Shown here piece after piece: positions 1 to 16,325 of a stretch of DNA of 64,000 nt. The DNA comes from Acidobacteriota bacterium (GTDB taxonomy: Bacteria > Acidobacteriota > Terriglobia > Terriglobales > Acidobacteriaceae). Positions within the stretch are counted from its first letter, which is position 1; every line of letters begins with the position of its first letter. Both the position numbers and the translations under genes were made by a program. The notes below the pieces were generated by a model that did not search any database, was not told where the DNA came from, and saw nothing but the letters and a program-made list of their open reading frames with translations. Where the stretch lies: positions 248,001 through 312,000 of the forward strand of contig JABCZH010000005.1 in the NCBI GenBank assembly GCA_013289795.1, in the 5' to 3' direction.

Positions 1-1095
1 GTCGCTGTAACTATAGAAGCGAGCCAGACGCTCCTCGTCTTCGGTTCCGTGGTAGTAAGAGCGCCAGTGAGTTGGATTGTGCAACATGGCTGCTTCGAGC
101 GCTTCTCTGACCTGAGAAATACGAACTGCCTTGCGACTTGCGAACAATTCCCGTTCGATTGCGCTGAGCGCGAAGACCGCCTCGCGAAACGCGAAGGTCA
201 GCCAGGGGCCCACTTTCAAGATTGCGAAATGGTCCTCCACCATTTGCTGAAGAGCTGTTGGCGACTGGTAATCGGTGGAATGAGCCTCGTAAGCCAGCGC
301 AGGATGCTCGGGCAAAGCAGACGAGAGCGCTGTTACTTTCTGACGGTCGTAATCGAAGATCACGCTGTCGCCGAACTCCACTCCGGGCTGCACCACCATC
401 CCGATCACCCTTTCCCAAGCCGGAGACACTCCCTGCTCTTCGAAGACCGCGCGGAAAGCCTCCAAGCTGTGCTGCACATTTGCGACCGGTGTGGCCACCG
501 GAGGCCGGCCTACGGCCGATTCGCCGCCGGGAACTGGAACTTCTGTACCGATGACGTAAAGAGGAGGCGCAGACCCCGCCGGCAGATCGGCGTGTGCACT
601 CTCCGCTGCCCGACATAGAATCGCTGCCCGGCGTGCGATGGTGCGCTCGTCCGGTCCGTCTTTTTCGTCATCGGCGCACGCCATGCTGGCGTCGAGATGA
701 ATCTTCCCGTATCCAGCCAGCACGCAGCAGCGAACCAGTTCACACGCCTTTTGCAGGGCCGCATCCGAGGCCTGTTCTCGCCAGGGGTACGGCCCCAGAT
801 GGTCACCGCCGAGCAGCACTCGCTCACTGGGCAGTCCAGCGCGCACTGCCGCAGAGTCAACAACCTTGGCGAATTGATCAGGCGTCTGCCCGGTGTAACC
901 GCCGAACTGATTCACCTGGCTCGACGTGGACTCAACCAGCAGGACGGATCCATCCTCGATGGCCTGCTGAATGGCCGCAGCGATGACACTGGGATGAGCC
1001 GAACACACGGCGTACACGCCCGCTCTTTCGCCGCGGCGATTGCGTTGGACAACTTGCCGCAATCGCTGGCTCGCATTGGCGCTCCGCGCTTCCAC
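1..1095 (-). CDS. gatZ: D-tagatose-1,6-bisphosphate aldolase subunit GatZ/KbaZ-like (partial, runs off left edge)
   Basis: I translated the reverse strand codon by codon from 1095 to 1 and found no stop. The protein opens with the family's N-terminal block (GVYAVCSAHPSVIAAAIQQA), then DGSVLLVESTSSQVNQFGGY, LLGGDHLGPYPW and the hallmark AYEAHSTDYQ. These are typical of the non-catalytic or chaperone-like subunit of class II tagatose-bisphosphate aldolase, normally about 420 residues, so roughly 55 residues lie beyond the window. The family acts with GatY/KbaY in cleavage of tagatose 1,6-bisphosphate during galactitol, N-acetylgalactosamine or galactose catabolism. The start is a GTG at 1095, chosen because it lies just ahead of the conserved N-terminus; no strong ribosome-binding site is visible. 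It follows the alpha-galactosidase remnant by 7 bases on the same strand, which fits a galactoside-use unit. Confidence 0.9.
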   Translation of the reverse strand, partial: MEARSANASQRLRQVVQRNRRGERAGVYAVCSAHPSVIAAAIQQAIEDGSVLLVESTSSQVNQFGGYTGQTPDQFAKVVDSAAVRAGLPSERVLLGGDHLGPYPWREQASDAALQKACELVRCCVLAGYGKIHLDASMACADDEKDGPDERTIARRAAILCRAAESAHADLPAGSAPPLYVIGTEVPVPGGESAVGRPPVATPVANVQHSLEAFRAVFEEQGVSPAWERVIGMVVQPGVEFGDSVIFDYDRQKVTALSSALPEHPALAYEAHSTDYQSPTALQQMVEDHFAILKVGPWLTFAFREAVFALSAIERELFASRKAVRISQVREALEAAMLHNPTHWRSYYHGTEDEERLARFYSYSD

Positions 1096-1102
1096 AGGTC
1101 GG

Positions 1103-2074
1103 TTACTCGGGCCGCGCCTCGAGCAGCAGATGTTGGTTGAACTCCACGGTAACGCTGGCCTTGGGACCGTGCACGCTCCCGAAATCTTTGTAGGTCACGT
1201 AATCGACGAGGTGATATGCGCGGTCCTCTAAACCGCGAAGTTCAACTCGTCCCGTCCAATGCCGGGCGAAGAACGCATAGTACATTTCCCCGCCTTTGCG
1301 GATCACGTGGGCCTCGGGACGGTCGAACCCGATGTCATAAAGACCGCCGAGATACTCTCCGCGCGAGAGCATTTTGTCTTTGTAAATGTGGACCCACTTC
1401 TCAAATAGCTTCTCCCGCTGCGGGGTCAGGTCTGAGGTGCTGCGCTTCTTCACCAGATTCGGCAGTACGAACTGGGTGCCGACCACTCCACCCACGCCCA
1501 CGGTGGAAGCGAAGTCGTTGGCGCCGTCGCTGAGCTCGACGTGGTCACCAAAATAGGGAACGTTGTCGCCCATAAGCGCTTTGAGGGTCTTTCCCTTGGA
1601 GCGAACCTGAAACGAACTCTCGGGATCGGAAGCCACTGACATATTGAAATGCGGCATAGTGAAGAAGGAATATGCAGTGCCGCAAGGGCAGAACTCAACC
1701 AAGGCGTCCGGTTTCACGCTCCGTGCCGTTTCGTACAACTCACGGAAGAAATCGGGCAGCGCTTCCAAAGAGTCTTCCGGCCGTTTGTGATGGTGCGCCG
1801 GGTTGTAGCAGGCCGGAACTCCATTCATGTGCTGGCCATCGAGCTTCAGGCCATCGAATCCCCACTCACCGAGGATCTTGCGCACCATCGCCTTGTGGTA
1901 CTCGACAACTTCGCGGTCTGCGGGGCACAGGTAGTCCGAGTTCCACCACGAAATCTTTCTCCTGTATCCGTCCTTGTTGAGCAACGCCCAATCGGGATGG
2001 TCTGGTTTACGTTGCACGGATTGGCGCTCTTTGGCCCAGATCGTCCTTGTCTTCCACCGAAAGAGTGTCTGGCT
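1103..2074 (-). pseudogene. alpha-galactosidase-like protein (clan GH-D), 5' truncated
   Basis: The frame is open from 2074 (just after an in-frame TAA at 2075-2077) to a TAA at 1103-1105. It reads like the C-terminal half to two thirds of a bacterial alpha-galactosidase. Visible features are WWNSDYLCPADREVV, the barrel strand GFDGLKLDGQ whose Asp is the likely nucleophile, FCPCGTA, and VASDPESS, a candidate acid/base region. Full-length relatives are usually 600-750 residues, but only about 320 codons are here, and the codons before the first possible start (GTG 2017) already look like coding sequence. The N-terminal domain is therefore missing, and the neighbouring plus-strand gene begins at 2114. 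It would hydrolyse terminal alpha-galactosides; as it stands it is probably inactive. The family is assigned from motifs; which GH family (36 or a relative) is uncertain. Confidence 0.65.
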
Positions 2075-2113
2075 TTAAAAGACCCTGCCGGGAACAATCG
2101 AGACTTTCTAAGA

Positions 2114-3241
2114 ATGTTCAGCCAGGAGGATGCTGCAGCAGGAATTGAGCAGGCTGCCATGCCCTTGAACGGGAAGATCGTTCCACTGGGAGTGGGTCTC
2201 TTTGCTCTGTTTTTGGTCGGAGCCCGCTGGATCGCGGGAGGGGTACCGGTACGCAGTTTGGGCGCCAGGAACTACGCCATCATTTTCCTCGTGCTCCTGG
2301 ACATTTGCTGCACCCTGGCGATAGTCGAGACCTGGCGGCTCTGCCAGGTATGGGAGGAGTTGCGACGACTCCTCGCGTTTCTCGATCGTCTGCCACTGAG
2401 GCGAACTTTGGCTGCACTCCGCGGCTTTTCCTGGGGAGGCGTGTGGAAGATGAGCGGGAATGTGCTGGAAGTGCGCTACAAAGTAATTTCTCGGCAAATG
2501 GAATGCATGAATCATACGATCGCCAGTCTGGAGGAAATCGCCAAGACGTCTTCCGATCCCGGTACCCACGATTCCCTGAAAGCTCTCACGAATATGCGCA
2601 ATGCAGGAACGACATTTGCCGGGTGGTATTCGACCAACTATGCGAATTCCCGCGCGGGAGATCTGAGCAGTTTTAGCAACTTTCAGGAGAGTATTGCATC
2701 CGCAAGCGGCACCCTGCTGACGAAATTACTCGTGCCGGCCTGGAAGATTGAGGAAGAGTCGTTGGTAGTCGGGATCACAAAGGAAGAGAAAGACGACGCT
2801 GCACAGAATCACCCGCCTCAGGCCAAGGAAAAGCACATTCAGAATGCTGAGGAATTTGTATGCTTGAACTACCTGGGTTTCATCCAGAATATCCTCGGTC
2901 GATTGCGAACGATGGCCGTGACCATCACACTGCTGTTAATAGTATCCACGGTTGCGACGTCCACGTATCCGTTTGACCCGCAACAGGCGCTGAGCGCAGT
3001 CTTGATCGTCCTTTTCGTTATTGTGGGTGTAGTAATTGTCAAGGTGTATGCGGATATGCACCGCGATGCCACGCTTAGCCATGTCACCAACACGAAGCCA
3101 GGAGAGTTGGGGACGGAATTCTGGTTCAAGATTCTTGGATTTGGTTTTGCCCCTCTGATTGGCCTGATGACTAGGATATTCCCAAGTATGACTGACTTTA
3201 TCTTCTCGTGGCTGCAGCCGGGCATCTCGTCCCTCAAGTAA
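2114..3241 (+). CDS. multi-pass membrane protein of unknown function, possibly missing its N-terminus
   Basis: I do not recognise a named family. From ATG 2114 (alternative ATG 2159) the product is about 375 residues. Two hydrophobic segments lie near the N-terminus (IVPLGVGLFALFLVGARW and YAIIFLVLLDICCTLAIVET), followed by a roughly 200-residue soluble, mainly helical region rich in charged residues. Two more membrane segments follow near residues 265-315 (TMAVTITLLLIVSTVAT and ALSAVLIVLFVIVGVVIV), then a short tail with another hydrophobic stretch. The first membrane segment begins almost at the start codon with no clear ribosome-binding site. The gene faces the truncated alpha-galactosidase across about 40 bases. 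Either the protein is short by nature, or its 5' end was lost in the same rearrangement that removed the alpha-galactosidase N-terminus. Confidence 0.6.
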   Translation: MFSQEDAAAGIEQAAMPLNGKIVPLGVGLFALFLVGARWIAGGVPVRSLGARNYAIIFLVLLDICCTLAIVETWRLCQVWEELRRLLAFLDRLPLRRTLAALRGFSWGGVWKMSGNVLEVRYKVISRQMECMNHTIASLEEIAKTSSDPGTHDSLKALTNMRNAGTTFAGWYSTNYANSRAGDLSSFSNFQESIASASGTLLTKLLVPAWKIEEESLVVGITKEEKDDAAQNHPPQAKEKHIQNAEEFVCLNYLGFIQNILGRLRTMAVTITLLLIVSTVATSTYPFDPQQALSAVLIVLFVIVGVVIVKVYADMHRDATLSHVTNTKPGELGTEFWFKILGFGFAPLIGLMTRIFPSMTDFIFSWLQPGISSLK

Positions 3242-3382
3242 CTGATCGATTTTGCCGGGCTGCCCTTCGAGGAAGCTATACCGAGAATGGTGCGGAGGGG
3301 AAGTTGCCACTGAAGCCGACAAATTGTCGTTGATTGCGCAGCGCGGATTGGCTGCCCAACACTAACCCGCCCGATCTGACTG

Positions 3383-5917
3383 TCACGATCCGCTATAGAG
3401 CTGAAAAGGGGCCCAGTAAAACGGTTTGCGGAACGAACTGCCGGAATGAAGCAAGGAAAGCTTGGCCTTGCGGAGCGCGACGTCGGGACTCTCTCCCTTG
3501 TTCAATTCTTCATAAAACTGATCCATCAGTTGCCCGGTGGAGACGTCACTCGCCTCCCACAGGGCAGCGATCACGTTGTGGGCGCCGGCTCGGAGGAACG
3601 CCCAGGAGAGCCCTACTAGGCCCTCGCCCGAATACGCGCGCGTGCCGGCGCCGTAGCAAGCCGAGATCGTAACCAAATCGGCTCGCACCGGGTGCTGAAT
3701 GATGTCACGGGCGTAGAGCTTGAAGGAGTCGCTACCGCTGCTGTTCTTGGACAACACAATGGCGGAGTCCAGAGGGCTTAACCGGCTGGCAATTCCATGC
3801 GCCACAAAATGGATGTAGGAGAACTGTTCCGGGTTGCTGGCCAGATACGCCACCGGGGTAGCCTGATCGCGCTGAAATGCCCGTTGCTGCGCAAGCGGGA
3901 AGTGTTTCGCGACACTTTCCATCTCGGCAGCAGCGTTCCGCAGCTCGGGATAATCCTGGCTGGGAGCGACGGTGTTGCCGAAGAGAAGCAGGCGGCGGGC
4001 GCGTTTCTCTTTCCCGGCATGCCACGCGCCCAGCAGCCGCAACGAACTGGCGTTCGCAATCGTGATGTCTTCAAGCCAGTAGTGCAACCTCGGTTCGGAG
4101 ACGAGCAGCGTCTCGAAATTCAAGCTGTTCATGCCACCATCGGGGATGATGAAGACCTTTCCATCCTTGGGCAGCAAAGTTCGCGCCGGCGCGATCAGCA
4201 TGCGATAAAGAGAGCACCCATCGTCATTGGCGGTGTCGAGAACGTCTTGCGGTCCGTTAAGAGCTTTACGATACCTTTGCATGGCCGCTTCAATTTCGAA
4301 GGCAGCAGGAAGCGAAAACAAACTGACCCTTTTCGGTGTGATCGCCCATAGGTACGACTGTTTGTCCCCCAGCCAATAGAAGAGGATTGTGCCTCCAGTT
4401 CGCCGCGCCACTGCGCGAGCGTCCAAGAGATCAGGTTTGAATGAGGTTCCTTTCTGAAGCAATCCCAATCCTTCGGCCAGAGTGCGGCCGCGGCTGTAGT
4501 CGGCAACCTGCAGTGCCTCGTGCTGCTTGCCCTGGGCCAGGAGGAATCGGATGTAGTCGTCGTAGATGCGGGAGGCATTACTAAGAAAAGGCAGCCGGGA
4601 GTCTTCGTGCCGGAGTTCGGAGCGGGCAGTCTCGAAGGTACTCAGGGCGGTGCGATATTCCCGATCCGCCAAGACCGACTGGGTTCTGTCTTCGTAGAGC
4701 CTGGCAAGAGATCGTTCCGCCTCCCACTTGAGAAACACTGGAGTATCTTGAGCCTGCGCCACTTGTCGGAATGCCCCCTCGGCAGCAACAGTATCGTGTT
4801 GTTGGGCGGCGACCCGTCCCTGCACCAACAGCGGATAGACCTCGTCACGTCCGTTGCGATCCTCTCGCGCTTTGGAAAGCGCCTCGTTCGCGTAGTGCAT
4901 CGCATCTTGTAGCTTGCCGGTTTGCTGGAAGACAAACGCCAGAGCAATCAGAGAGTTGATGACGTCTTCTCTGCTATTGATTGACTGTGCCTGCTTAAGC
5001 GACTGCTGGAAGGATTGCTCGGCAATGGCCAATTTGCCGGCGTCCATGTAAATGTACCCGGCGTTTGTGAGCCACTTAATTTGGTCGGTCATGTCCCCAA
5101 GCTTCTCCGCTTGCTTTTCCGCCTCGACGAACATGTCCTCAGCTTTTTCGGAGTCTCCGAGTTTGTAGTAGGCCCAGCCTATGTTGCCCAGTGCTTTTTG
5201 CGCGACATCAGGAGCGCCCCGCTCCCCAGCAATTCGACGAGCGGCATTAGACCAGTCCAGCGCCTCATCGAAGTGAGTCTGCTCGTTCGCCGACCAGCTC
5301 AGATCCAGCAATGCATCAGCTTCCCAGAGTTGATCGCCGCTGGCCCGCGCCGAAACCAGAACCCGCTCGAAGTAGACTTGGGCTTCGGAATAGTGACTTC
5401 GTGCCATCTCCAGCGTCCCCAGTGCTGTGTCTACATCTGCGCACCCCGGATAGTTCTTAGCGGCACACAGCCTTTCCGCTTCTTCGAGCTTCTGTGCTGC
5501 CTCGGAGAACCGGTGCAACGACGTGTAAGCGAGACCCTCCCAGCGCCGTTTTTCTACGGCCAGTTCGCCGGTGGGCAAGTCGACTGGCTCGGAAGCCAGC
5601 ACCTTTACCACTTCGTCGTACATGCCCCGCTGGTACAGAGCCCTTGCTTTCAGCACCGTGAACTTCGAGGCCCACTCTGGGCTGACGTTGTGGAACCGCT
5701 CGTAGCCTCTCTCTGCTTCTTTCCACCCCGCCACTAGATCGCCTTGGCTGACGGTCTGCTCCGCATGCTCGAACGCGGCCCGGGGATCGCCGCGGGTGCA
5801 GGCCGATAGGTAGGCGAAAATCAGAACTAGCGAAGTTCGTCTTAGCGCTGGCGATTTGGAGCAAGCTCCCCGTTCGACCTTCGGGTTGGTATCCCGGTTC
5901 TTGGGTCTGCAGAGCAT
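3383..5917 (-). CDS. TPR-CHAT caspase-like lipoprotein
   Basis: About 844 residues from ATG 5917. The chosen start gives a lipoprotein signal: basic residues, the hydrophobic run SLVLIFAYLSA and a lipobox with the lipidated Cys near residue 40 (LSAC). The longer frame upstream has no signal-like feature. Residues about 45-480 are tandem TPR helices (for example ALGNIGWAYYKLGDSEKAED). The last 250 residues are a CHAT domain, a caspase-like fold, with HFVAHG (His about 707) and VTISACYGAG (Cys about 754) as the predicted catalytic dyad, followed by GLVGLSWAFLRAGAHNVIAA. It is the last gene of a minus-strand run behind an ECF sigma factor, an anti-sigma factor and an unknown protein, with a 233-base gap holding a strong hairpin. 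The inferred role is an envelope-anchored protease triggered through the TPR region; its substrate is unknown. Confidence 0.85.
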   Translation of the reverse strand: MLCRPKNRDTNPKVERGACSKSPALRRTSLVLIFAYLSACTRGDPRAAFEHAEQTVSQGDLVAGWKEAERGYERFHNVSPEWASKFTVLKARALYQRGMYDEVVKVLASEPVDLPTGELAVEKRRWEGLAYTSLHRFSEAAQKLEEAERLCAAKNYPGCADVDTALGTLEMARSHYSEAQVYFERVLVSARASGDQLWEADALLDLSWSANEQTHFDEALDWSNAARRIAGERGAPDVAQKALGNIGWAYYKLGDSEKAEDMFVEAEKQAEKLGDMTDQIKWLTNAGYIYMDAGKLAIAEQSFQQSLKQAQSINSREDVINSLIALAFVFQQTGKLQDAMHYANEALSKAREDRNGRDEVYPLLVQGRVAAQQHDTVAAEGAFRQVAQAQDTPVFLKWEAERSLARLYEDRTQSVLADREYRTALSTFETARSELRHEDSRLPFLSNASRIYDDYIRFLLAQGKQHEALQVADYSRGRTLAEGLGLLQKGTSFKPDLLDARAVARRTGGTILFYWLGDKQSYLWAITPKRVSLFSLPAAFEIEAAMQRYRKALNGPQDVLDTANDDGCSLYRMLIAPARTLLPKDGKVFIIPDGGMNSLNFETLLVSEPRLHYWLEDITIANASSLRLLGAWHAGKEKRARRLLLFGNTVAPSQDYPELRNAAAEMESVAKHFPLAQQRAFQRDQATPVAYLASNPEQFSYIHFVAHGIASRLSPLDSAIVLSKNSSGSDSFKLYARDIIQHPVRADLVTISACYGAGTRAYSGEGLVGLSWAFLRAGAHNVIAALWEASDVSTGQLMDQFYEELNKGESPDVALRKAKLSLLHSGSSFRKPFYWAPFQLYSGS

Positions 5918-6080
5918 GGCCGGTCCGGTTGCTGATAGGATTTTAGCCTGAAAGGTGGGAAAAACGATTGCCACAATAGGGGACGATTGGACGTCGATGG
6001 GAAGCCGTATTAAACCGGATTCAGCGTGGCTGTTTTTTCCTGGATAGGGCGCACGAGGTGGCCTGTTTGCAGAGATTGCA

Positions 6081-6114
6081 GTGTGCGGGAACAGCCGAGG
6101 GCTGTTCCGCACAC
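6081..6114. repeat. long perfect-arm hairpin in the gap before the TPR-CHAT gene
   Basis: GTGTGCGG and AACAGCC pair with GGCTGTT and CCGCACAC around a GAG loop: 15 base pairs with a single bulged G. It lies in the 233-base gap between the 305-aa gene and the TPR-CHAT gene. No T-run follows on either strand, so it is not a standard intrinsic terminator. It could be an mRNA stability or processing element, an attenuator, or one copy of a dispersed palindromic repeat. Confidence 0.6.
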
Positions 6115-6150
6115 TTATCGGCTAGCGCGCGACCTTAGTGAAGCTCAGAT

Positions 6151-7068
6151 CTAAGGATGGTGCCCTCCCCCGCCGCTGCCTGTGCCGTTCGAATCCAGCG
6201 CGATAACATGGCCGCTTCCATGCGCGATGCACCCCAGTTCCATCCGGATCATGGTCAGATGGAACGAATACGTGTCGTGTTGTTGGGGGCCCGCCTGCGA
6301 AGCATGGTTCTGTGCCTGCTTACGATTCACTCTCAACTCGGCCAGGAAAATCCTCCCAAAGTTGGGAAGGTCGATCACGTGTCCGAACGAGATACCGGGA
6401 GCTCCCTCCACGCTGCTGACTAGTGAGCAGTTCGCGGTGTTCAAGCCGGGCTTGCTTTTATCCTGGAAGGCGGCAGCCTTGCTCCAACGGTATTGCTGGC
6501 TGGCCCACATGGGGAGGCCCTTTACCCCGTTTATGTTCTTATACTGGCCGGAGATCCTCCTGAAGACGCCGCTATCTTCAAAATACGATTTGTCGCCGGA
6601 GGGCTTGGGGCCGATAATGTCGAGACACGGTTCAATATCAACCTTGTGTCCAGCAATCCTCAGATTGTCGAAGCGAGTACCCAAGAACGTGACTGACGGC
6701 ACCTGGCCTTCGGGAAAAACAGGATGCTCGGTGGAAATCTGGCCCACCACGCGATCGGCGGTGATCACGTCAAGAATGTTAAGTCCCTCGACCACAGAGG
6801 TCGTCAGTGTCCTAAAGGCTTGGCCAGCCTTAGGGCTTTGGTGCCCCGCGACCTGCGTGTACCCCGACTCATAGGATATGATCCCTTCGAGGCGGAAAGG
6901 CAGTGCCGGTCTGAACTCGTATCCGCCGTCTTCGGGCAACTTCAGGACTTCGGGTTCGACTTCCTTTCTTAGCGGTTTTTCGATCTTCGCACTAAGAATC
7001 TCCGCCGCTGCGTGGAAGTGGTGGTGGAACAGATCGCTCACTGGCTGTGACTTCGGAAATGTTGCCAT
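6151..7068 (-). CDS. unknown 305-aa protein between anti-sigma factor and TPR-CHAT lipoprotein
   Basis: The start ATG 7068 is preceded by GAAGGAG at good spacing, which favours it over the upstream in-frame codon. No signal peptide, lipobox or membrane segment is visible. The N-terminus is rich in His (DLFHHHFHAAAEIL) and the C-terminus ends in a Gly/His tail (SGGGGHHP). The middle contains LPFRLEGIISYESGYTQVAG and VVEGLNILDVITADRVVGQI, and a patterned beta-rich body up to IFLAELRVNRKQ. I do not recognise a domain. It starts 23 bases after the anti-sigma gene and precedes the TPR-CHAT gene, so co-transcription with both is likely. A role as protease substrate, ligand sensor or third regulatory partner is inference from position only. 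Confidence 0.7.
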   Translation of the reverse strand: MATFPKSQPVSDLFHHHFHAAAEILSAKIEKPLRKEVEPEVLKLPEDGGYEFRPALPFRLEGIISYESGYTQVAGHQSPKAGQAFRTLTTSVVEGLNILDVITADRVVGQISTEHPVFPEGQVPSVTFLGTRFDNLRIAGHKVDIEPCLDIIGPKPSGDKSYFEDSGVFRRISGQYKNINGVKGLPMWASQQYRWSKAAAFQDKSKPGLNTANCSLVSSVEGAPGISFGHVIDLPNFGRIFLAELRVNRKQAQNHASQAGPQQHDTYSFHLTMIRMELGCIAHGSGHVIALDSNGTGSGGGGHHP

Positions 7069-7091
7069 ATCGATTGCTCCTTCGTTTGAGA

Positions 7092-7769
7092 TCACTTCTG
7101 GATCTTAAGTTCAACTGAAGTACGACCGATTTCCTGGTTTTCGCCCGTCGCAGAGGTTCCCCGTAGTGCCAAAATGTAAGTGCCCGATCCCCGATTCGTT
7201 CCTGGCACCTGGACTGGCCACGTATCTTCGGCCAAGTTTGCGGGGATCGTGAGCGACCACTCCAGCTTTCCCGCAGGGTTATACAGATCAGCGATGTAAC
7301 GTGCGTAGCGGCTGTCGGGAGGAATATTCAAAAAGAGCAGGAAACTCCCTCCTTGTGGTACCTCGATCACAGGAGCGTTCGTACCGCGGAGTCTCATCCT
7401 TAGCGATGCCCATGGCAAAACCCGTGGGCGATTGCCCGCCTGTTTCAGTCGCGGATACGTGACAAGATTCTGATAGCCCACCAGTGCCAAGAGTAAGGCC
7501 AATGCGGGCACTGCAAAACTGGGACGCAACCAAACGACCCATCCCGCCTTCACGGGAACCGGAGCAGGTAGTTGCGCAGCATTTGTCCCGCGGTTCTCCG
7601 CAAACAGGGTCTTGCTCTGCTCCACGAATATCGAGGCGGCTCGCACATCGAGTGCGCACTCCGGACAGCCAAAAAAGTGCTCTTCGAACTCATCCTGCTT
7701 CTCAGGATCCAGTTCATGGAGTAGATACCGCTCCGTCATTTCTCGCCGAACCACCTCATCGTGGTCCAT
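7092..7769 (-). CDS. zinc-finger anti-sigma factor (membrane anchored)
   Basis: 225 residues from ATG 7769, preceded by GGGAG. The cytoplasmic N-terminus carries a zf-HC2-type zinc site EEHFFGCPECA (His31, Cys35, Cys38), the hallmark of anti-sigma domains that hold ECF sigma factors. A single membrane segment follows (FAVPALALLLALVGYQNL, about residues 84-101). The remaining 120 residues are a beta-rich, probably extracytoplasmic domain (VPQGGSFLLFLNIPPDSRYA), as in many Acidobacteria anti-sigma proteins. It starts about 50 bases after the ECF sigma gene, the usual order for a sigma/anti-sigma pair. In the resting state it should tether the sigma factor at the membrane; release could be by proteolysis or by a signal sensed outside. 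Confidence 0.88.
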   Translation of the reverse strand: MDHDEVVRREMTERYLLHELDPEKQDEFEEHFFGCPECALDVRAASIFVEQSKTLFAENRGTNAAQLPAPVPVKAGWVVWLRPSFAVPALALLLALVGYQNLVTYPRLKQAGNRPRVLPWASLRMRLRGTNAPVIEVPQGGSFLLFLNIPPDSRYARYIADLYNPAGKLEWSLTIPANLAEDTWPVQVPGTNRGSGTYILALRGTSATGENQEIGRTSVELKIQK

Positions 7770-7817
7770 TCGCTAAATTCTCCCTCATAGAGTAGTGAGC
7801 CTTCGTACGCCAACGTT

Positions 7818-8453
7818 TCAAAGCAGTTGGGCTCTAGCCTCCGACGGCGGATCGCCATCCATGTGACTGAAATACAATGACTTGAATGATTGCTTCGCGC
7901 GATGCAGTAGCACTCGCAGATAGTCTCGGTCTACACCAAAGTCACGACATACCTCATCTTTATTTCGCTCCTCAAGAAAAACTTCGCGCAGCAATCGCTG
8001 GTCGCGTTCAGAAAGTTTCTCGAGGACCCGCCGGACCTTTTCACCCAATTCCTTTGCCGAGAGAGCGCCGAACAGATCAGCCGACTCATCGGGGAAATCC
8101 TTCTTTTTCTCATCTTCAAAGGAACTGGCGCGAGGGGTAGCTCGGTAGTGCTCCAGCAAGACGTTTCCACAAGTGGAGTTCACAAACGAGCCCAAGCGCT
8201 CCGGATGCAGAATCTTTCCATCCCGCAGAGACGTCAACACCCGCGCAAACGTTTCCTGACGCACATCCTGGAGTGCTTCCCGCGAGCGCAGCCGAGAGCG
8301 CAGTTTGATCTGCATGAGTTCGCCGAAATAGGCGACAAAGTGTTCCTGGGTACGAAAGTCGCCCGCCCGCAGGCGCTCGACATAGGCCTCGTCAAAGGAC
8401 TGAAATTGCAAGAGCTTGCCCCGCGGACTCGGAAACGGCAGACAGTATAGCAC
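7818..8453 (-). CDS. ECF-type RNA polymerase sigma factor
   Basis: About 211 residues from GTG 8453. A longer in-frame start at 8579 adds a Pro/Ser-rich leader that does not look like sigma factor sequence. Region 2 is visible as FVAYFGELMQIKLRSRLRSR with ALQDVRQETFARVL, the DxxQETFxRV helix that contacts the -10 element and core polymerase. Region 4 is visible as LEKLSERDQRLLREVFLEER then CRDFGVDRDYLRVLLHRAKQ, the helix-turn-helix that reads the -35 element. The C-terminus extends with FKSLYFSHMDGDPPSEARAQ. It heads the minus-strand cluster with the anti-sigma factor, unknown protein and TPR-CHAT lipoprotein, and probably directs their transcription. Start choice is the main uncertainty. Confidence 0.88.
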   Translation of the reverse strand: MLYCLPFPSPRGKLLQFQSFDEAYVERLRAGDFRTQEHFVAYFGELMQIKLRSRLRSREALQDVRQETFARVLTSLRDGKILHPERLGSFVNSTCGNVLLEHYRATPRASSFEDEKKKDFPDESADLFGALSAKELGEKVRRVLEKLSERDQRLLREVFLEERNKDEVCRDFGVDRDYLRVLLHRAKQSFKSLYFSHMDGDPPSEARAQLL

Positions 8454-9057
8454 TTCAGGTGAACTACGGACGCTATCCAGCGAGTGTGCGTGCGATGGTG
8501 GACGTCTGAGGACTTGGTGGCTGTTGCGAACGCCGCTGGACGGGATTGAGTGAGGTACACGCACTGGAAGAAGCGCCACACTCTGATTACCTCAGAGCAA
8601 GGATGGACTAACAGCCGGAAAAGGCAACGCGCCAGGAATGTACCGGAGCCGCTTCCCCTCAGCTCCGCTGCTTCAATCATCCTGGCTCAGAACCTCCGCG
8701 TTGGTCTTTGAATTGGCGACATCGCGTGGCGGCCTGATGTGTCCCCTCTTAGCTTGGATAGTGACAAAACTGCGCTTACCGTTTCATTCGATTAGTGAAC
8801 AACCCTCGCAGGCGGCAAGCGTCACCCAGCTCAGATAGGCCTCGGCTAACTGCCGCACCTCAGAGGAGGACTTGAAACGATATCGCTCCTGATCTCACTA
8901 TTCAGCGAACGGCAAGAGCAAACTTCCAGTTTGCGCTGAAAGCAGGCTGAATTCTTGTGCCAACATCCTTTATTCTCGTTATCGTTCCCGCGAGAAACCA
9001 TCCTCCCGGTTCTGGGGAAATTCGTTCGAGGGTAGTGCCTCGAAGCAAGGAGAACCT
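8454..9057. other. divergent intergenic region between sigma factor and phosphoesterase genes
   Basis: No convincing gene is seen in these 600 bases. There is a perfect 7-bp inverted repeat GCAAACT-TCC-AGTTTGC at 8918-8934, which could be an operator or small hairpin. The region should contain promoters for both the minus-strand sigma cluster and the plus-strand phosphoesterase. I could not pick -35/-10 elements with confidence, and the ECF consensus for this sigma factor is unknown. Confidence 0.5.
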
Positions 9058-10263
9058 ATGACCGCTCATCGATACGAACAACTCTTGAGAACCATACCCA
9101 TACCACCACACTCGGCGCCAGTCACCGCGCAACCGCACAAACCCATTGGCAAGGGCAGTCGGCCAGCTGGTGATCCATCATCACCACCGAAACCCTACCC
9201 GCGATTTATCCCGCTCCCACCTACAAATCTCAACAACCTGAGCCTTGGGTTGGACGTGATCCTTCCTGATGAGGCAAAGGCAGCCGAGAATGCGGGTGTG
9301 CTTATTTTTCACGCGGTGGGCGACACCGGAGGCATTCACGGTGACGATGTCGAGACGGCAATCTCCGCTGCGATGGACAATCAGATTTCCGCCGCCACGG
9401 CCAAGTATCCTGCTCCCGCCTTCTATTACAACCTGGGAGATGTAGTCTATTTCAACGGGCAGAGCAATCTTTATCCAAGTCAGTTCTACGAACCTTATCA
9501 GAACTACCATGCTGCCATTTTTGCCATCGCTGGCAACCACGACGGCGACACTTCAACTCGGCCAGGCGATCCAGTCGACAGCGAACCGTCGCTATTCGGT
9601 TTCATGCGAAACTTTTGCGATGCCGCCAGCCACCACGACAGCCCCTACCGTCCTACCATGACGCAGCCTTACGTGTACTGGACGCTTGAGACACCGTTTG
9701 CCACGATTGTCGGCCTTTATTCGAATGTTGACGGCACGCTTGATGCTAGAGGCACAAGTCAGCAGCAGCAGTGGCTTCAGGGTCAGGTATCCAATGCGGC
9801 CAAAGGCAAAGCACTGGTTATCACGGTGCACCATCCACCATACTCACTCGATACCACGCACGGAGGCTACCCGGACATTGAAATTGCTCTGGACCGTGTT
9901 ATTCAAGCCACCGGGCGCATCCCCACGGCAGTCCTTTCCGGCCATGTGCACTCCTATCAACGGTTCGAACGTGCGTTGGGAGACAAAAAGGTGCCCTACA
10001 TCGTCGCCGGTGCGGGAGGTTACGCCAACACGCATAACCTGCTGCATAAAATCGAAAAAGCGAATGGGAAAGCGTTGGGTCCAAGGCTTCAAACTACCCA
10101 TCAAGATCTGAAGTTAATGACATTCAATGATCAAGATCCCGGCTTCCTTCGGGTCACTGTGGACGGCAAGAAACAAACCGTGACCTTCGACTATTTCGTT
10201 GTTCCGTTTCCGCCGAGTTCACCCAGTGCGAGCCCAGCCGATACGGTCACAGTCCCCTGGTGA
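9058..10263 (+). CDS. calcineurin-like metallophosphoesterase
   Basis: 401 residues; ATG 9058 follows AAGGAGA at good spacing. The metal-binding motifs are in order: HAVGDTGG (first Asp, with the usual DxH replaced by DTG), YNLGDVVY, AIAGNHDGD, TVHHPPYS and LSGHVHSYQRFE, all consistent with a two-metal phosphoesterase of the purple acid phosphatase/3',5'-cAMP phosphodiesterase type. The first 60 residues are Pro-rich and contain no signal peptide, so the protein is probably cytoplasmic unless exported another way. It diverges from the sigma-factor cluster and lies 260 bases upstream of the EXORDIUM-like gene on the same strand. The substrate cannot be told from the sequence. Confidence 0.85.
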   Translation: MTAHRYEQLLRTIPIPPHSAPVTAQPHKPIGKGSRPAGDPSSPPKPYPRFIPLPPTNLNNLSLGLDVILPDEAKAAENAGVLIFHAVGDTGGIHGDDVETAISAAMDNQISAATAKYPAPAFYYNLGDVVYFNGQSNLYPSQFYEPYQNYHAAIFAIAGNHDGDTSTRPGDPVDSEPSLFGFMRNFCDAASHHDSPYRPTMTQPYVYWTLETPFATIVGLYSNVDGTLDARGTSQQQQWLQGQVSNAAKGKALVITVHHPPYSLDTTHGGYPDIEIALDRVIQATGRIPTAVLSGHVHSYQRFERALGDKKVPYIVAGAGGYANTHNLLHKIEKANGKALGPRLQTTHQDLKLMTFNDQDPGFLRVTVDGKKQTVTFDYFVVPFPPSSPSASPADTVTVPW

Positions 10264-10524
10264 AGCAGTGTGGTGGGTGCATTTTGGTCTTGCTTCTTAG
10301 ACGAAATCGAAACACGTCGTTGACTGCTTAAGACGGGTTTTGTGCCGTCCGCAAGCTGGGTCGAATTCGCGGGACACTGATGTCCTTCCTATTTGTCCTG
10401 GTGGAAACCAGGGCGCGGGGAAGAGCACGGGGTCATTCCTCGGGGAGCTTCCCCGAAGCGCCTATCCTCAGGTGGCAGGGATTGGCGTCTTCCATCCTTT
10501 GCCCCAACTCAGAGGAGGTACAAC

Positions 10525-11619
10525 ATGAAATCGAGAAAGAGCACTGACAATTACATCCGGGCCATGCGCGTATTTGTGGGCCACCGAACCAAAGCTGAGA
10601 AGGGTTTCCGATCGCGCGTGTCTATGCCTGAACTAACCGCAATTGCGCCGGGAGTGCCTCCGACCCCGGAACACGATCTGACCTTTCACGGAGGAAACAC
10701 TATTGTCAACTTGATCTTTACCAATTTCTACGTTGGGGGATCCGACGCGTGGGCAGCGAGCGACATCCAGTCCATCGACCAGGCGCTAGCGTCCGCGATG
10801 TCCGATCCGAACTTGAATAATGTGATGTGCCAGTACTATCCGTCGGGCCAGATCACCTCAACCTTTCGTGGTTCTCAAACGCTCGCCGGCCCGCCCCCGC
10901 AAACTGTCTCCCAAGGCGATGTCGAGAATTTGGTAGGCACGTTGTCCAGGGCCGGGACACTCAACGGTTTTGATCTGACCTCCACCGTTTTTAATTTCAT
11001 GCTTCCCAGCGGGACGATCCTCAATACCAACGAGTCACCTACCAGCAGTACGATCATTGCCCGTACCGAATCAGCTCGGCTTAGGCAACCGGCAACGCAC
11101 TCCGTCCAGGCGGCTGCTGTTCCGGTTGAAGAAGAGGAAGATTCCACGCAGGGACTGGGTGGCTATCACGGCTCTATCCATGTGGGCTCGGGGCCGAACC
11201 AGCAAACCATTTACTACGCGGTGGGTGTTTACTCGGAGAACCGTCCCGACGGCAGCGTCAATGGCATTCCAGTTTTCGATCAGGCCTGGAAGAATGTGGT
11301 GGCTACCTTCTATCACGAATTGAACGAAGCCCGAACTGACCCGGACGTTGAGGACGCGGTCCGCGCAGGAAACGACCCGAACGCCGTCAATTTCTTGGGT
11401 TGGACTTCGTCACAGGGGGAGGAATGTGGTGATTTTCCTGTCTTTGAAGCGAATCCACTGAGTCAGGTCTTTCAGGAGGTCGAATTAACTGACAACAGTG
11501 GTACTGTTCCCATTCAATTCCAGTACTCTGACGCTGATCATGGCCCCGGTGAACCGCGAGACAAACCGACGCCGTTCGCCGGTCAAGCTAGTCAGGCAAG
11601 ACGTCAGAAAGCGGTCTGA
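10525..11619 (+). CDS. EXORDIUM/phi-1-like protein with an HExxE motif
   Basis: 364 residues from ATG 10525, which follows AGAGGAGGT. The first domain (HDLTFHGGNTIVNLIFTNFY ... IQSIDQALASAM ... VMCQYYPSGQ) matches the layout of the plant phosphate-induced/EXORDIUM family and its bacterial relatives. The second half has GGYHGSIHV, IYYAVGVYSE and then FYHELNEARTDPD followed by WTSSQGEECGDF. This HELxEAxTDP plus GExxGD pair is the conserved core of that family and resembles a zinc-binding HExxE site. No N-terminal signal peptide is visible, which is odd because plant members are extracellular. A linker of acidic residues (EEEED) separates the halves. Function is unknown in bacteria; the family call rests on motif order. 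Confidence 0.6.
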   Translation: MKSRKSTDNYIRAMRVFVGHRTKAEKGFRSRVSMPELTAIAPGVPPTPEHDLTFHGGNTIVNLIFTNFYVGGSDAWAASDIQSIDQALASAMSDPNLNNVMCQYYPSGQITSTFRGSQTLAGPPPQTVSQGDVENLVGTLSRAGTLNGFDLTSTVFNFMLPSGTILNTNESPTSSTIIARTESARLRQPATHSVQAAAVPVEEEEDSTQGLGGYHGSIHVGSGPNQQTIYYAVGVYSENRPDGSVNGIPVFDQAWKNVVATFYHELNEARTDPDVEDAVRAGNDPNAVNFLGWTSSQGEECGDFPVFEANPLSQVFQEVELTDNSGTVPIQFQYSDADHGPGEPRDKPTPFAGQASQARRQKAV

Positions 11620-11679
11620 CACCGCTGCGAAGGAATTTTGCAGCTGCCTAAGGCACGCAACAGGGCGGTCGCTGCTGAG

Positions 11680-11900
11680 CATCAACCAAGATTCAGCGAT
11701 CGCCCAAGCGGCACGCTGAGCACGATCTACACCTTTTGTGTGCGACTCGGCTGCCTCGGCGCAAAACCCTTCGCGGGACTGGTCCAGGCCACTGGCGGGA
11801 GTTTGTACGAACGACTGAGGTTGGCGGGACCAACTTCAGCTGCCAAGATCGCTGTGGGACGGTCTTCACAATCACCCCAAGCGCCATCACCCTCTCGTAG
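11680..11900 (+). pseudogene. GloVer-type tandem-repeat protein remnant (frameshifted)
   Basis: Two frames together rebuild one GloVer repeat. GTLSTIYTFC and GAKPFAGLVQATGGSLYE are read in one frame up to about 11812. After a one-base shift, TTEVGGTNFSCQDRCGTVF TITPS follows and ends at TAG 11898-11900. These are the signature pieces of secreted choice-of-anchor GloVer proteins (TLYSF ... DGxxPxAGLVQATDGxFYGTT ... GTVFKITPSG). Nothing else of the parent gene remains, so this is a decayed fragment in the 535-base gap after the EXORDIUM-like gene. Confidence 0.6.
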
Positions 11901-11969
11901 CCCACTTCGTATGCCGCAGGATCGTTCCTGGAGATTAATAACGATTCCGATCAAGAGCATGTTCCTGCG

Positions 11970-12050
11970 GTGCTGAGCCGGCGTGAGGCTCTGAAAGCAG
12001 CTGCAGCGATCATGTCTTTCCTCGGAGGAGCGAACTCAGGATTTACTTAG
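11970..12050 (+). other. 26-codon reading frame resembling a Tat signal peptide
   Basis: GTG 11970 to TAG 12048-12050 encodes a peptide containing SRREALKAAAAIMSFLGG, which has the SRRxxLK core and hydrophobic run of a twin-arginine signal. No ribosome-binding site is clear and no mature domain follows. It may be the front end of a lost Tat-exported protein, or chance. Confidence 0.2.
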
Positions 12051-12154
12051 CCCAGCCCTAGTGGGCACGAGGACAACCCTAAGCCTTCGGTGCCGGGCCG
12101 CAATTCCGACTAGCGAACCTAGACGTTACGGTACTCGGAACTGCGAGCGCCAGT

Positions 12155-15100
12155 TTAGTCGCCCCGAGGCTTGAAGTGGACCGGTGGCCTGTGCACAGCA
12201 ACGGCCAACGGCCTGTGCGGCTCGTCGCGCTCCGCGTAGACAGTTACGTGCAGCCGCTCCGACCACACTCGCTCCGCCAACTCCTTCATGTCTCTCTCGC
12301 GGTTGAAGAATTTGTGGTAGCGCTCTTCAGTCTCGAGCGCGAAGCCTTCAAAGTCTCCGAACTGGTCGAAGATCAGGCTCGAGATCTTTCCTGTGTACTC
12401 AACCCGTTGCTCGTGCCGGGGATGCGGGTGGATTGTCGGAGTCGGCTCCAACTCTCCGGTTGGCGACGGTCCAATCTCGCTCGGGTCGCCGCCGAGACCA
12501 GCCACGCGTTCCGCAATCTGCTCCACATAGCGATTGAACACGGCGTACCACCGATCTTGCGGCGGAACCGACAGCTGGATCCAGCGCAAGATCGCCAGCA
12601 GCCGCTCTTCCGGTTCGAGCATCACTTCCTTGACTGAGACCGGAATCCCTACTTGGAATGATCCGATCACGCGTCGCTCGTTCAGCCGCACTGCGGCCTC
12701 AGCGTCAATCGTTGGTTGCCCGGCGAAGCGCTCGCCGATGGGTGCTACCTGACGCACCAGCACATCGAATCGTTGCCCTTTCTTCACGCCCGGCGGCAAA
12801 TCGACTGTGAGCAGCCCGGTATGGTTCACTATCGCTCCGGGCGGAATGGGTAAATACGTGATGCCTTGCACGCGACACTCTAGGGTGTGCGCGTCGGTCC
12901 GCTTGAAGAGTGACGGGCCGTATCGTTTTGCGAGCAGCTCCAGGATCTCGTCCGCGCTTACTGTGGGCAGATAGATTCGCGCGAAGCTGCCGGGAGGCAC
13001 GTTGCCCCAGTCGATCATTAATTCATCAGCTGCCCGCCCTTTCAGTGTCGGTGTCGGCTTCAGTTCGAATGCACTTGGAATCCGCCGTGAAGCTACGTCA
13101 CCCGGGTTGGCTGAGGGTACCAGAGTCAGGTTGCGCTGCGCCAGCTTGTCGGAGCTCGCCGGCGTAGCCCCGGTAGGTATCGTCTCCAGATCGTACGAGA
13201 TTTCGGCGAGCAGGCACTGGTGCTGGTTGCGCACCAACTCCAGGATCGACTTGGTTCCGGAATATGGCCCGTCGTTGGTTGGATTCAGCGGGAATTGCTG
13301 CATCCCCGGCTGATTGATATCCAGCCAACAACCGAAATATCGGACCACTTCGTTGCCGCTCGCATCATGTGGCATGGTGATGACGTTGGTCGGGTCGGGC
13401 TGCGTGTCCATTTTGGCACCGGGAGTTACGCGTGCCGCGGCGAAGAACGGTATGGTCAGAATATTGTTGTTTTCCAAGCCTAGACGCGGGATCTTGTGCC
13501 CGAACTGCACACCATCAGAAAATGTCCTGTATGTAGTGTTTGGGTCGAAGGCAGTAGATACCGTTAGCGCCGGGCACAGACGGAAGAACACACGTGTGGC
13601 AGTTGCATCTTGGGAGAGCGCGCGATAGCGCACCTTGGCGATCGCAAAATTGAAGATCGCGTTTCCGCCGCCGTCGAACTGGTTGAGTGCAACATCGGTG
13701 CCGGTTGGATCAAGATCGTTCTCAAACGTCTGCCCGCCGCTGTTGCCACCCGGGTTGAGATTGTTGAGGACGGCGTTGATGAAGTTGATAGCATCGGTCG
13801 GAGTACCCCCGTTCAGCGGAACATTGAATTTCGATTGCCCCTGCTTAACAAAGAACACCCTGAGGTCGGTACTCAGCCACGAAGTCGCGCCGTCTACCTC
13901 GTAAGGATTCTCCTGCTGGACCAACTGAATCACCGCGCTGCCGGAGGCCGTGGCGATCGAAGCATTCAGCGTTACGTTCAACGTCGGCTGTGTGAAACCG
14001 TTCGAACTGCTGAAGTTGACGGCGTAGACCCACGTGAAACGCTGAGGGGTCGGCGGCAGCGACGGGTCTTCGGCAATCAGCGCATTAGGGACCCCAGCGG
14101 TTGGCCATCCCAGCGTCATGCCGGTCACGGCCGGGGACGAAGTTAGGACCGGCCTCACGCTCGGCGTTCCCACCAGGTCCGCTGCTGTAATGCCGAGGTC
14201 GGATGCTTTGAACCCGTCGACTACCACGTAGAATGCGGCATTTACAGTGGGCTGACCGGCTGTGAGCATGGCCTTGACTTCGTCCTGCCCGAACGTGCTC
14301 CTGTCGAGAATGAAGAAACACTGCTGCTGAATGATCGAAACGTTGGTGCTCCAGATCTCCTCCGCTCCGCCGCTTCGCCGATCCGTCCAGGCGGGAAAGA
14401 ACGACCCGAAGAAACCGGAAAGACCATCGTAATCGCCATATTGATTGGGGTTCGCTCCGGCCGTGGTCTCATCGCTCGCGGCGGAGCTTACCTGCACCGC
14501 TGGAGTCCAGGTTTGCCCATCATCTGTAGAAGTCTGCATGAAAACGTTGGTCTGGAGCCGGTTGGGATCGTTGACCGTATCGCGATACGTTACGATCAAG
14601 TTGCCGTTGCTCTCGTCGACACAGAGTTTCGAGTGGAATTGATCATTCAACGACGCTTGATTGTTCAACATCACTGGGGCAGACCAGCTATTGCCGCCGT
14701 CGGTGGAGCGCGAGAACCACACTCGTGTTTTGCAAGTTGAAGCCGCATTGCTACCCGGGCCTCCTCCGCTGTTGCATCCGGCAGCGCCGCTGAGATCGCT
14801 CCAAATCACGTACGCCAAGTCCTTCGTCGCCGTCTTGTAGGCGCCCCCCGATGTGTAGACCCGCGCCCTCCGGTTGTTGTCCGACGGAATCGCGAGTTTG
14901 CGCGTGGTGGCAAAAGTCTGAGCGATGATCTTTCGCGCCGAAGCCGGGAACGTCACTCCGCCATCGGTCGATTTGGCCACGACGATATTCCGGCTTCCGT
15001 CCGCGTCGGGCCAGAACACGTAGACATCGCCGAACGCGTTGGTTTTGATGTCGCCGCCGATGCCTTGAACCATAGTCTCGCTGCCGCTCACCTGAAGCGC

Positions 15101-15595
15101 GGGTTGCCATGCGGAGCCTGCGCCCGCTGTCTTCCGCGCAAAAAACACAGGCGTGCCATTGTGCCAGGTTGCGTACACCTGATCTTTGAACGGCGATATC
15201 GCACTTTTGTCCACCCAGATAATCTCGCGATCCGTGCCGGTTTGAGCGCCCGAAGGAGTTGCATCCAAAGTCCACGTCTGCCCGTTGTCCGTGGACTGGT
15301 AGGCGCGAACGCTGGTGTTGACGCTGGGGTCGATCCCGATGCACAAGGCGTGCGCTACTCCGTCGGAAGTCCAATCCACGGCCGGGTCGCTCTGCAGCGT
15401 GTCGGCGCCAGCGAGGGGCAACCCCAACGCGGATTGTCCCCAGCTACCACCACCGTTCGTGGAAAAGAACACGGCTTCCTGGCCGCCCGAGTCGTTGGCC
15501 GCCGCAATGATTCTGCTCGGGTCGCCGTAGTTAAGCCGAATATCGGTTTCCGTGCGCGCCGTTGCAGATGCGCCTGAGATTCTAGAATCGCTCAT
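12155..15595 (-). CDS. large Asp-box (BNR/sialidase-like) repeat protein
   Basis: 1146 residues from ATG 15595, which overlaps the stop of the preceding gene as ATGA and follows a G-rich ribosome-binding site. The N-terminal third is a beta-propeller with at least five Asp boxes: STNGGGSWG, STDNGQTWT, STDGGVTFP, STDGGNSWS and STDDGQTWT, the fold of sialidases and photosystem assembly factors. Catalytic Arg-triad residues of true sialidases cannot be assigned. The middle is an Ig/beta-rich region (WVYAVNFSSSNGF ... LRVFFVKQGQSKF). The C-terminus is distinct: a proline-rich spacer, then ISSLIFDQFGDFEGFALE and an alpha-helical end (MKELAERVWSERLHVTVYAE). No signal peptide is seen. It is coupled to the small gene upstream, so the two probably act together; function unknown. 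Confidence 0.8.
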   Translation of the reverse strand: MSDSRISGASATARTETDIRLNYGDPSRIIAAANDSGGQEAVFFSTNGGGSWGQSALGLPLAGADTLQSDPAVDWTSDGVAHALCIGIDPSVNTSVRAYQSTDNGQTWTLDATPSGAQTGTDREIIWVDKSAISPFKDQVYATWHNGTPVFFARKTAGAGSAWQPALQVSGSETMVQGIGGDIKTNAFGDVYVFWPDADGSRNIVVAKSTDGGVTFPASARKIIAQTFATTRKLAIPSDNNRRARVYTSGGAYKTATKDLAYVIWSDLSGAAGCNSGGGPGSNAASTCKTRVWFSRSTDGGNSWSAPVMLNNQASLNDQFHSKLCVDESNGNLIVTYRDTVNDPNRLQTNVFMQTSTDDGQTWTPAVQVSSAASDETTAGANPNQYGDYDGLSGFFGSFFPAWTDRRSGGAEEIWSTNVSIIQQQCFFILDRSTFGQDEVKAMLTAGQPTVNAAFYVVVDGFKASDLGITAADLVGTPSVRPVLTSSPAVTGMTLGWPTAGVPNALIAEDPSLPPTPQRFTWVYAVNFSSSNGFTQPTLNVTLNASIATASGSAVIQLVQQENPYEVDGATSWLSTDLRVFFVKQGQSKFNVPLNGGTPTDAINFINAVLNNLNPGGNSGGQTFENDLDPTGTDVALNQFDGGGNAIFNFAIAKVRYRALSQDATATRVFFRLCPALTVSTAFDPNTTYRTFSDGVQFGHKIPRLGLENNNILTIPFFAAARVTPGAKMDTQPDPTNVITMPHDASGNEVVRYFGCWLDINQPGMQQFPLNPTNDGPYSGTKSILELVRNQHQCLLAEISYDLETIPTGATPASSDKLAQRNLTLVPSANPGDVASRRIPSAFELKPTPTLKGRAADELMIDWGNVPPGSFARIYLPTVSADEILELLAKRYGPSLFKRTDAHTLECRVQGITYLPIPPGAIVNHTGLLTVDLPPGVKKGQRFDVLVRQVAPIGERFAGQPTIDAEAAVRLNERRVIGSFQVGIPVSVKEVMLEPEERLLAILRWIQLSVPPQDRWYAVFNRYVEQIAERVAGLGGDPSEIGPSPTGELEPTPTIHPHPRHEQRVEYTGKISSLIFDQFGDFEGFALETEERYHKFFNRERDMKELAERVWSERLHVTVYAERDEPHRPLAVAVHRPPVHFKPRGD

Positions 15596-15921
15596 CGCTG
15601 GCCCCCTTTCTTGCGCGTCGGATCGCCTGCAGATCCCCACGGCAGGTCGGGGTGAATGAGCATCCAGTTGTGAATCGTGTGCAGCACATCCGGATACCCG
15701 GCGCCCGGATTTGTCTTTGGATGCGGCACATCAGGATGATTCTTCCGCCAGTACACCCGCAACCACAACGGCAATCCGGCCTCATCGTTGGCTTCCTCCG
15801 GTGCCAGCAGTTGAAAGTCCTGATTGGCCTTGATCAACTTTTCAAGAGCACTTCCCGATGGTGATTTCGCCGCAGTTAGTTGCTTTTCGAGAGAGGGCCA
15901 CGCTGGCTTGTCCGGAGTCAT
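15592..15921 (-). CDS. small conserved-looking protein translationally coupled to the BNR protein
   Basis: 109 residues from ATG 15921, which follows GGAGGTGTCGG; a further start 18 bases upstream has no better site. The sequence is hydrophilic, with LEKLIKANQDFQLLAPEEAN, LPLWLRVYWRKNHPDVPHP and a C-terminal HTIHNWMLIHPDLPWG. I recognise no domain. Its stop overlaps the start of the 1146-residue Asp-box protein by the ATGA arrangement, so both should be made from one mRNA in fixed proportion, suggesting a partner or chaperone role (inference). Confidence 0.75.
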   Translation of the reverse strand: MTPDKPAWPSLEKQLTAAKSPSGSALEKLIKANQDFQLLAPEEANDEAGLPLWLRVYWRKNHPDVPHPKTNPGAGYPDVLHTIHNWMLIHPDLPWGSAGDPTRKKGGQR

Positions 15922-16325
15922 TCCGACACCTCCATGCACCGTTTAAATAGTGTAGAAATTTCGCAAACCGTTTCAGCTCGCCGAGGTCCCATTTTTGGTC
16001 GCCCCGTGGAGGCCTTCCCCCAGAATCAGCTTATTGCTTCTCGATCTGCTGCCGCGATTTGTAATGGTAAGTCGGCTTCTGGGAAGTTAACGACTGCTCC
16101 GGAGCAATCCGGAGGACAAAGACAAATTGTCCGCTGTAGGTTCAACGAGCGGACCAACCAAGCGAGGGTGACCCGTCGGGGCCAGATGGGCCACACTAAA
16201 GGCGTCGAGAATTTCGCAACTGTTATCGACAAGGAACTGTGCACGAAAATTGTAGTGACAGAAAACGGAGGACGGCGCGGCCCGGCCTCATTTTCCGATT
16301 TCGCGCCCTGTTCGCCAGGTCTGCA
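15922..16325. other. intergenic region, no gene seen
   Basis: About 400 bases between two minus-strand genes. It contains a 7-bp inverted repeat GTCCGCT ... AGCGGAC near 16128-16155 but no coding pattern. The promoter of the small gene/BNR pair should lie at its left end. Confidence 0.4.

Follow-up and report, generated by a model that had tools for sequence, protein, structure and literature searches.

In type III-E CRISPR (clustered regularly interspaced short palindromic repeats) systems, the protease Csx29, which joins tetratricopeptide repeats (TPR) to a CHAT domain, cuts Csx30, an inhibitor of the extracytoplasmic function (ECF) sigma factor CASP-sigma, and it has been proposed that this cleavage frees the sigma factor (PMC10028731). 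CHAT proteins are also found, along with subtilases and carboxypeptidases, among the neighbours of the ECF54 sigma factors, which a review lists among the sigma factors without an anti-sigma factor (PMC8999054). We have analysed a stretch of 64,000 nucleotides (nt) from Acidobacteriota bacterium (assembly GCA_013289795.1, contig JABCZH010000005.1, positions 248,001 to 312,000 of the forward strand; hereafter the window), whose minus strand carries, in this order, the genes for an ECF sigma factor, an anti-sigma factor, a beta protein of 305 amino acids (aa) and a TPR-CHAT protein, the first three being closely spaced. Our reading, to which we assign a probability of roughly one half, is that this unit is an envelope-facing, CHAT-operated anti-sigma switch that would connect an ECF sigma factor with an event at the cell envelope. 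It is probably an undescribed route by which an outside signal reaches gene expression through the cutting of a protein. We found no description of the four-gene unit, or of the gene fusions discussed below, in the literature searched, which did not cover the main ECF reclassification paper, such that earlier notice is possible.

As in type III-E systems (PMC10028731), the gene for a TPR-CHAT protease is linked to those for an ECF sigma factor and an inhibitor. Unlike there, the CHAT protein is predicted to be exported and lipid-anchored, the inhibitor is a zinc-binding anti-sigma (ZAS) protein of the membrane, and the 305-aa beta protein stands in the place of Csx30/Csx31. The TPR-CHAT and ECF sigma parts are held in common, but the extra membrane anti-sigma factor and the predicted export of CHAT make it very improbable that the unit belongs to the type III-E protease module or is directly related to it. 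An earlier note on this DNA had suggested a possible CRISPR-free relative of that module; type III-E membership finds no support: the model for the type III-E sigma factor (NF041236) gave no match above cut-off in any of 13 module-bearing genomes, the module's own sigma factor not being among the matches listed, and a search for a CRISPR-like array (direct repeats of at least 21 nt with copies within 200 nt) found none in the window. Furthermore, four genomes with the module (G015, G019, G022, G029) gave no match to Cas1, Cas7-11 itself not being searched for. The same note had thought of a defence switch, for which no support was found; PADLOC returned only a generic TPR match and the flanks of the unit are not conserved, and we have rejected the defence-system reading.

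The unit shares with ECF54 a CHAT protein adjoining an ECF sigma factor (PMC8999054), but differs in that a ZAS membrane anti-sigma factor is present in all 88 complete loci described below; the ECF group of the unit's sigma factor was not assigned. With the regulated breakdown of anti-sigma factors of the RseA/DegS/RseP type it has in common an ECF sigma factor, a single-pass anti-sigma factor with an outer domain and a protease on the outside (predicted here), whereas the candidate protease in our case, a caspase-like TPR-CHAT lipoprotein, is encoded by the operon itself.

Conservation of the four-gene order

The 305-aa, sigma and CHAT proteins were searched in 100 relatives, where 17 regions besides the window carry the sigma, anti-sigma, 305-aa and CHAT genes in that order. 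A scan of named genomes with a CHAT alignment gave 80 loci, every one of them titled as Acidobacteriota or a group within, and further genomes of the phylum were added. When loci with identical C-terminal 300 CHAT residues were counted once, 104 distinct TPR-CHAT loci were obtained, and 88 of these have all four genes, in order and on one strand. Eleven of the 16 remaining loci end at a contig edge, and there are five true departures from the order (L123, L150, L169, L210 and L217). L123 has a lone CHAT gene, though no closer relative of the window's CHAT was found, and L210 has the order 305-aa, CHAT, anti-sigma, without a sigma gene.

The four-gene order is conserved far beyond chance. With a mean identity of 36-51%, the proteins have diverged considerably, so the order has very likely been kept by selection. 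No flanking gene family recurs in more than 13 of the 104 loci, and we therefore take the unit to consist of these four genes. In all loci reached through the 305-aa protein, its gene was found only beside a TPR-CHAT gene. The four minus-strand genes of the earlier note, with their order, coordinates and description, are all confirmed; its CRISPR-independent unit of sigma factor, anti-sigma factor and TPR-CHAT protein is a conserved one, and the objection that the order might lack conservation in other Acidobacteriota clearly fails. The unit belongs to soil Acidobacteria, and among the cultured strains that carry it are Edaphobacter lichenicola, Silvibacterium bohemicum and Paracidobacterium acidisoli.

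The four proteins and their predicted location

The sigma factor (window positions 7818 to 8411; this and all features below lie on the minus strand) has 197 aa when read from a TTG start at 8411, as its conserved leader suggests, while the longest open reading frame reaches 8579. It scores 47.2 bits with TIGR02937 (cut-off 42.9) and has the sigma2/sigma4 architecture of ECF factors, with the separate Pfam regions 2 and 4 each below cut-off; close orthologues are present in 17 relatives. Scanning for the pattern TGN(1-2)TA[ACT]A[ACG]T revealed an extended -10 promoter element at a nearly fixed place upstream of the sigma gene in 49 of the 88 complete loci, as against 0-1 in control segments. 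In the window this element is TGCTATACT (8444 to 8452), and it looks like one of housekeeping type. A hairpin-like sequence, GTGCCGGAGCCGA...GCGGCTCCGGCAC, recurs 150-250 nt before the operon in L051, L055, L133, L134, L137, L142 and L157, and a remnant lies near position 8640 of the window; it has no Rfam match, and no known RNA element was found in positions 1-16000 of the window. In L142, an Acido-Lenti-1 RNA (RF01687, 58 bits; L142:10313-10358) follows shortly after the operon copy.

The anti-sigma factor (7092 to 7769, 225 aa) matches PF13490 (zf-HC2) with 26.8 bits against a cut-off of 22.2, and combines a zinc motif with one membrane helix, there being a single strong hydrophobic segment. 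The three residues of the motif H31-x3-C35-x2-C38 (7656 to 7679) are invariant in 60 sequences. In the AlphaFold2 model (mean pLDDT 84), a helical N-terminal part is followed by a long helix, residues 77-113, across the membrane segment and by an all-beta domain of residues 118-225 (7095 to 7418). This outer domain is predicted to be extracytoplasmic and immunoglobulin-like: it aligns to beta-sandwich domains, immunoglobulin-like ones among them, with VIA-align Z scores of up to 9.2 (root-mean-square deviation (rmsd) 3.1, 103 residues aligned) and Foldseek E values down to 2e-6. Beyond the ZAS, one of the best-conserved stretches is the juxtamembrane segment Y99-Q100-N101...P106...P115 (7425 to 7475), in which Q100 is invariant and Y99, N101, P106 and P115 are nearly so in the same 60 sequences. 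Judging by this conservation, it is a candidate site of protease action.

The TPR-CHAT gene (3383 to 5917) most likely starts at the ATG at 5917, giving a protein of 844 aa, with the longest open reading frame reaching 6112. Several TPR families match, the MalT-like TPR match of Pfam covering 4502 to 5194, and the caspase-like CHAT domain lies at 3395 to 4213 (PF12770, 167 bits, E 7e-49). Its His/Cys dyad is formed by His707 (codon 3797 to 3799) and Cys754 (codon 3656 to 3658), and in the corresponding alignment columns the His is present in 103 of 103 sequences with a letter there, the Cys in 104 of 104. Among solved structures, a sequence search with the CHAT part gave only 8rot_B (E 0.013). 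At the N-terminus, the segment RRTSLVLIFAYLSAC-T reads as a lipoprotein signal with the lipobox LSAC (codons at 5798-5809), which ends at Cys40. The intact dyad and the lipobox that the earlier note had pointed to are thus both there. By a simple rule, which was not benchmarked and for several loci was applied to longest-frame starts, 68 of 105 loci have a lipobox, and most of the remaining loci show a hydrophobic segment at the N-terminus but no lipobox.

The 305-aa protein (6151 to 7068) had been called unknown. It does have relatives, since NF040603 (choice-of-anchor P) matches 53 of 63 orthologues, best with E 2e-10, in the N-terminal half of the family; the window's protein scores 19.3 bits, below the cut-off of 27 bits, and orthologues in six relatives score above it. 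This uncharacterised protein has no good match in the PDB. Its AlphaFold2 model (pLDDT 90.8) is all-beta with long strands, and the best comparisons with solved structures (VIA Z 4.5, rmsd 6.3; Foldseek E 0.008) gave no usable match, which is no proof of a new fold. Choice-of-anchor P proteins are typically secreted with a signal peptide. The 305-aa protein, unlike them, has neither signal peptide nor anchor and is embedded in a sigma operon. No N-terminal hydrophobic segment or signal peptide was found in the members examined, and because the upstream gene ends a median of 24 nt before the 305-aa gene, there is no room for a missed one. At the other end, the final 18 residues include NG in 86 of 96 members, and 66 end in Pro; in each of the remaining three proteins of the unit the figure is 3-5 of 90-105. 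This conserved, NGxTxP-like tail (about 6151-6200 in the window), which is of low confidence in the model of the window's protein, may be a docking peptide.

To look at how the proteins diverge together, distance matrices over 73 loci were compared after removal of the sigma distance. The divergence of the 305-aa protein goes with that of the TPR region (r 0.51; 0.41-0.59 over the 5-95% range of subsamples) rather than with that of CHAT (r 0.12) or the anti-sigma ectodomain (0.18); these being correlations among related sequences, they only hint at contacts. Since divergence tracks the TPR and not CHAT, and since the signal peptide is missing, the 305-aa protein looks likelier to be a partner than a substrate. 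This bears on the alternative that CHAT cuts the 305-aa protein, and that this cleavage, in a role like that of Csx30, is the signal instead of cleavage of the anti-sigma factor. The exclusive pairing of the 305-aa gene with the unit's CHAT gene would fit such a role, and the middle segment, residues 141-210, is less conserved and could be cut. However, no member carries a signal peptide while CHAT is predicted to be exported, the co-divergence points to the TPR, and a separate ZAS anti-sigma factor already supplies the inhibitor, which together render this alternative rather improbable.

TPR-CHAT genes beside other ECF sigma factors

For other TPR-CHAT genes of the relatives, more extended regions were examined. 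When the unit itself, fragments, duplicates and four loci found through their sigma factor are set aside, the count of such genes is 51. A same-strand ECF gene lies within about 300 nt in 19 of them, a count that takes in L284, whose ECF-like gene scores below the model cut-off; by a rough estimate, which takes each genome to have some tens of ECF genes, about 1% would be expected by chance. In one arrangement, the ECF gene directly precedes a TPR-CHAT gene without an N-terminal membrane helix. The window's own genome has such a locus (L245, contig C17:44000-58000), without an anti-sigma gene, and the arrangement recurs in eight other loci. In another (L069, L218, L219, L070), CHAT is followed by the sigma gene and then by a gene matching the anti-sigma profile.

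In yet another arrangement, the ECF gene is followed by a single chain in which one or two HxxxCxxC motifs and a membrane helix come before TPR and CHAT. Seven such ZAS-like chains were found (L064/L295, L253, L255, L259, L284, L286 and L308), all directly after an ECF gene, for example at L064:15205-18912, L253:4389-8135, L255:5213-8620, L259:3757-7227, L284:4129-7770 and L286:5102-8716. The motif HAAxCxxCGPxL and the dyad are conserved in them. If read correctly, these fusions would put CHAT on the outside and tie it to anti-sigma function. Together with the conserved lipoboxes or N-terminal hydrophobic segments they support the odd topology that the earlier note had remarked on, with the protease outside and the sigma factor inside.

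The fusions also speak to the possibility that the TPR-CHAT and 305-aa proteins are outputs or passengers, the anti-sigma factor sensing the signal by a conformational change or through another protease. Genes that adjoin an ECF gene are often targets of the sigma factor, and in the window the likely CHAT start lies about 230 nt beyond the 305-aa gene, a gap that contains a strong hairpin. This hairpin (6080 to 6115) is near-perfect, the 71-nt stretch around it folds at -31.9 kcal/mol (z -3.7), and no T run follows; as it occurs in a single copy genome-wide, a repeated palindrome was rejected. With this gap and hairpin, there may be a separate CHAT transcript in the window. Against passengers stand the seemingly housekeeping-type promoter element before the sigma gene, the existence of the ZAS-transmembrane-TPR-CHAT fusions, and the adjacency of CHAT and ECF genes in several different gene orders, and we regard this possibility as unlikely.

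A further alternative is that the TPR-CHAT lipoprotein is a non-proteolytic sensor or scaffold that binds the anti-sigma ectodomain. When the anti-sigma part and TPR-CHAT are fused in one chain, allostery would be possible, but the dyad is invariant in all sequences that have letters there. This is hard to explain otherwise than by catalysis, and we give the alternative little probability.

A proposed CHAT-operated switch at the cell envelope

For the reading that we prefer, an anti-sigma switch operated by CHAT, the following course of events can be proposed. At rest, the anti-sigma factor would hold the sigma factor. A signal would be picked up by way of the TPR repeats, with the 305-aa beta protein as their probable partner, and would activate CHAT, which would cut the anti-sigma factor in its outer or juxtamembrane portion (site-1 cleavage). 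Housekeeping intramembrane and cytoplasmic proteases would then remove the remaining anti-sigma fragment, as for RseA, and the sigma factor would be freed. In favour of this course count the conserved order with no further recurring neighbour, the invariant dyad, the lipoboxes and N-terminal hydrophobic segments, the fusions and the frequent closeness of other TPR-CHAT genes to ECF genes, the conserved juxtamembrane segment, the co-divergence of the 305-aa protein with the TPR region, and the precedent of Csx29 and Csx30.

Several points weigh against this reading. The anti-sigma factor is a putative substrate of CHAT, and the co-divergence of ectodomain and CHAT (0.36) is not clearly above that of the anti-sigma domain and CHAT (0.32). 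The lipoprotein may sit in the inner or the outer membrane, and the fusions could act without proteolysis. On their N-termini, the anti-sigma models of Pfam and NCBIfam stay below cut-off, so that the fusions are called "anti-sigma" on account of their motif, their helix and the adjacent ECF gene. If the 305-aa protein touches the TPR, its lack of a signal peptide is difficult to square with the predicted outside location of the TPR; such a contact would need an unexplained export route or would have to form before the lipoprotein is exported. Lastly, two loci with full context, L123 and L150, keep the CHAT gene alone.

More tentatively, and with the balance somewhat against it, exported TPR-CHAT proteins could form a general class of operon-encoded, anti-sigma-releasing proteases in the Acidobacteriota, comprising separate lipoproteins as well as ZAS-transmembrane-TPR-CHAT chains, with a choice-of-anchor-P-like protein docking on the TPR as sensory input.

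In the literature searched, control of a sigma factor by a caspase-like CHAT protease has been shown only for one CRISPR subtype. If our reading is true, a chromosomal, CRISPR-independent unit with its protease on the outside would make a tractable general case, one that is found in cultured strains. The unit also provides a context for a choice-of-anchor-P-like protein, and it may hint at the origin of the parts used in the CRISPR version.

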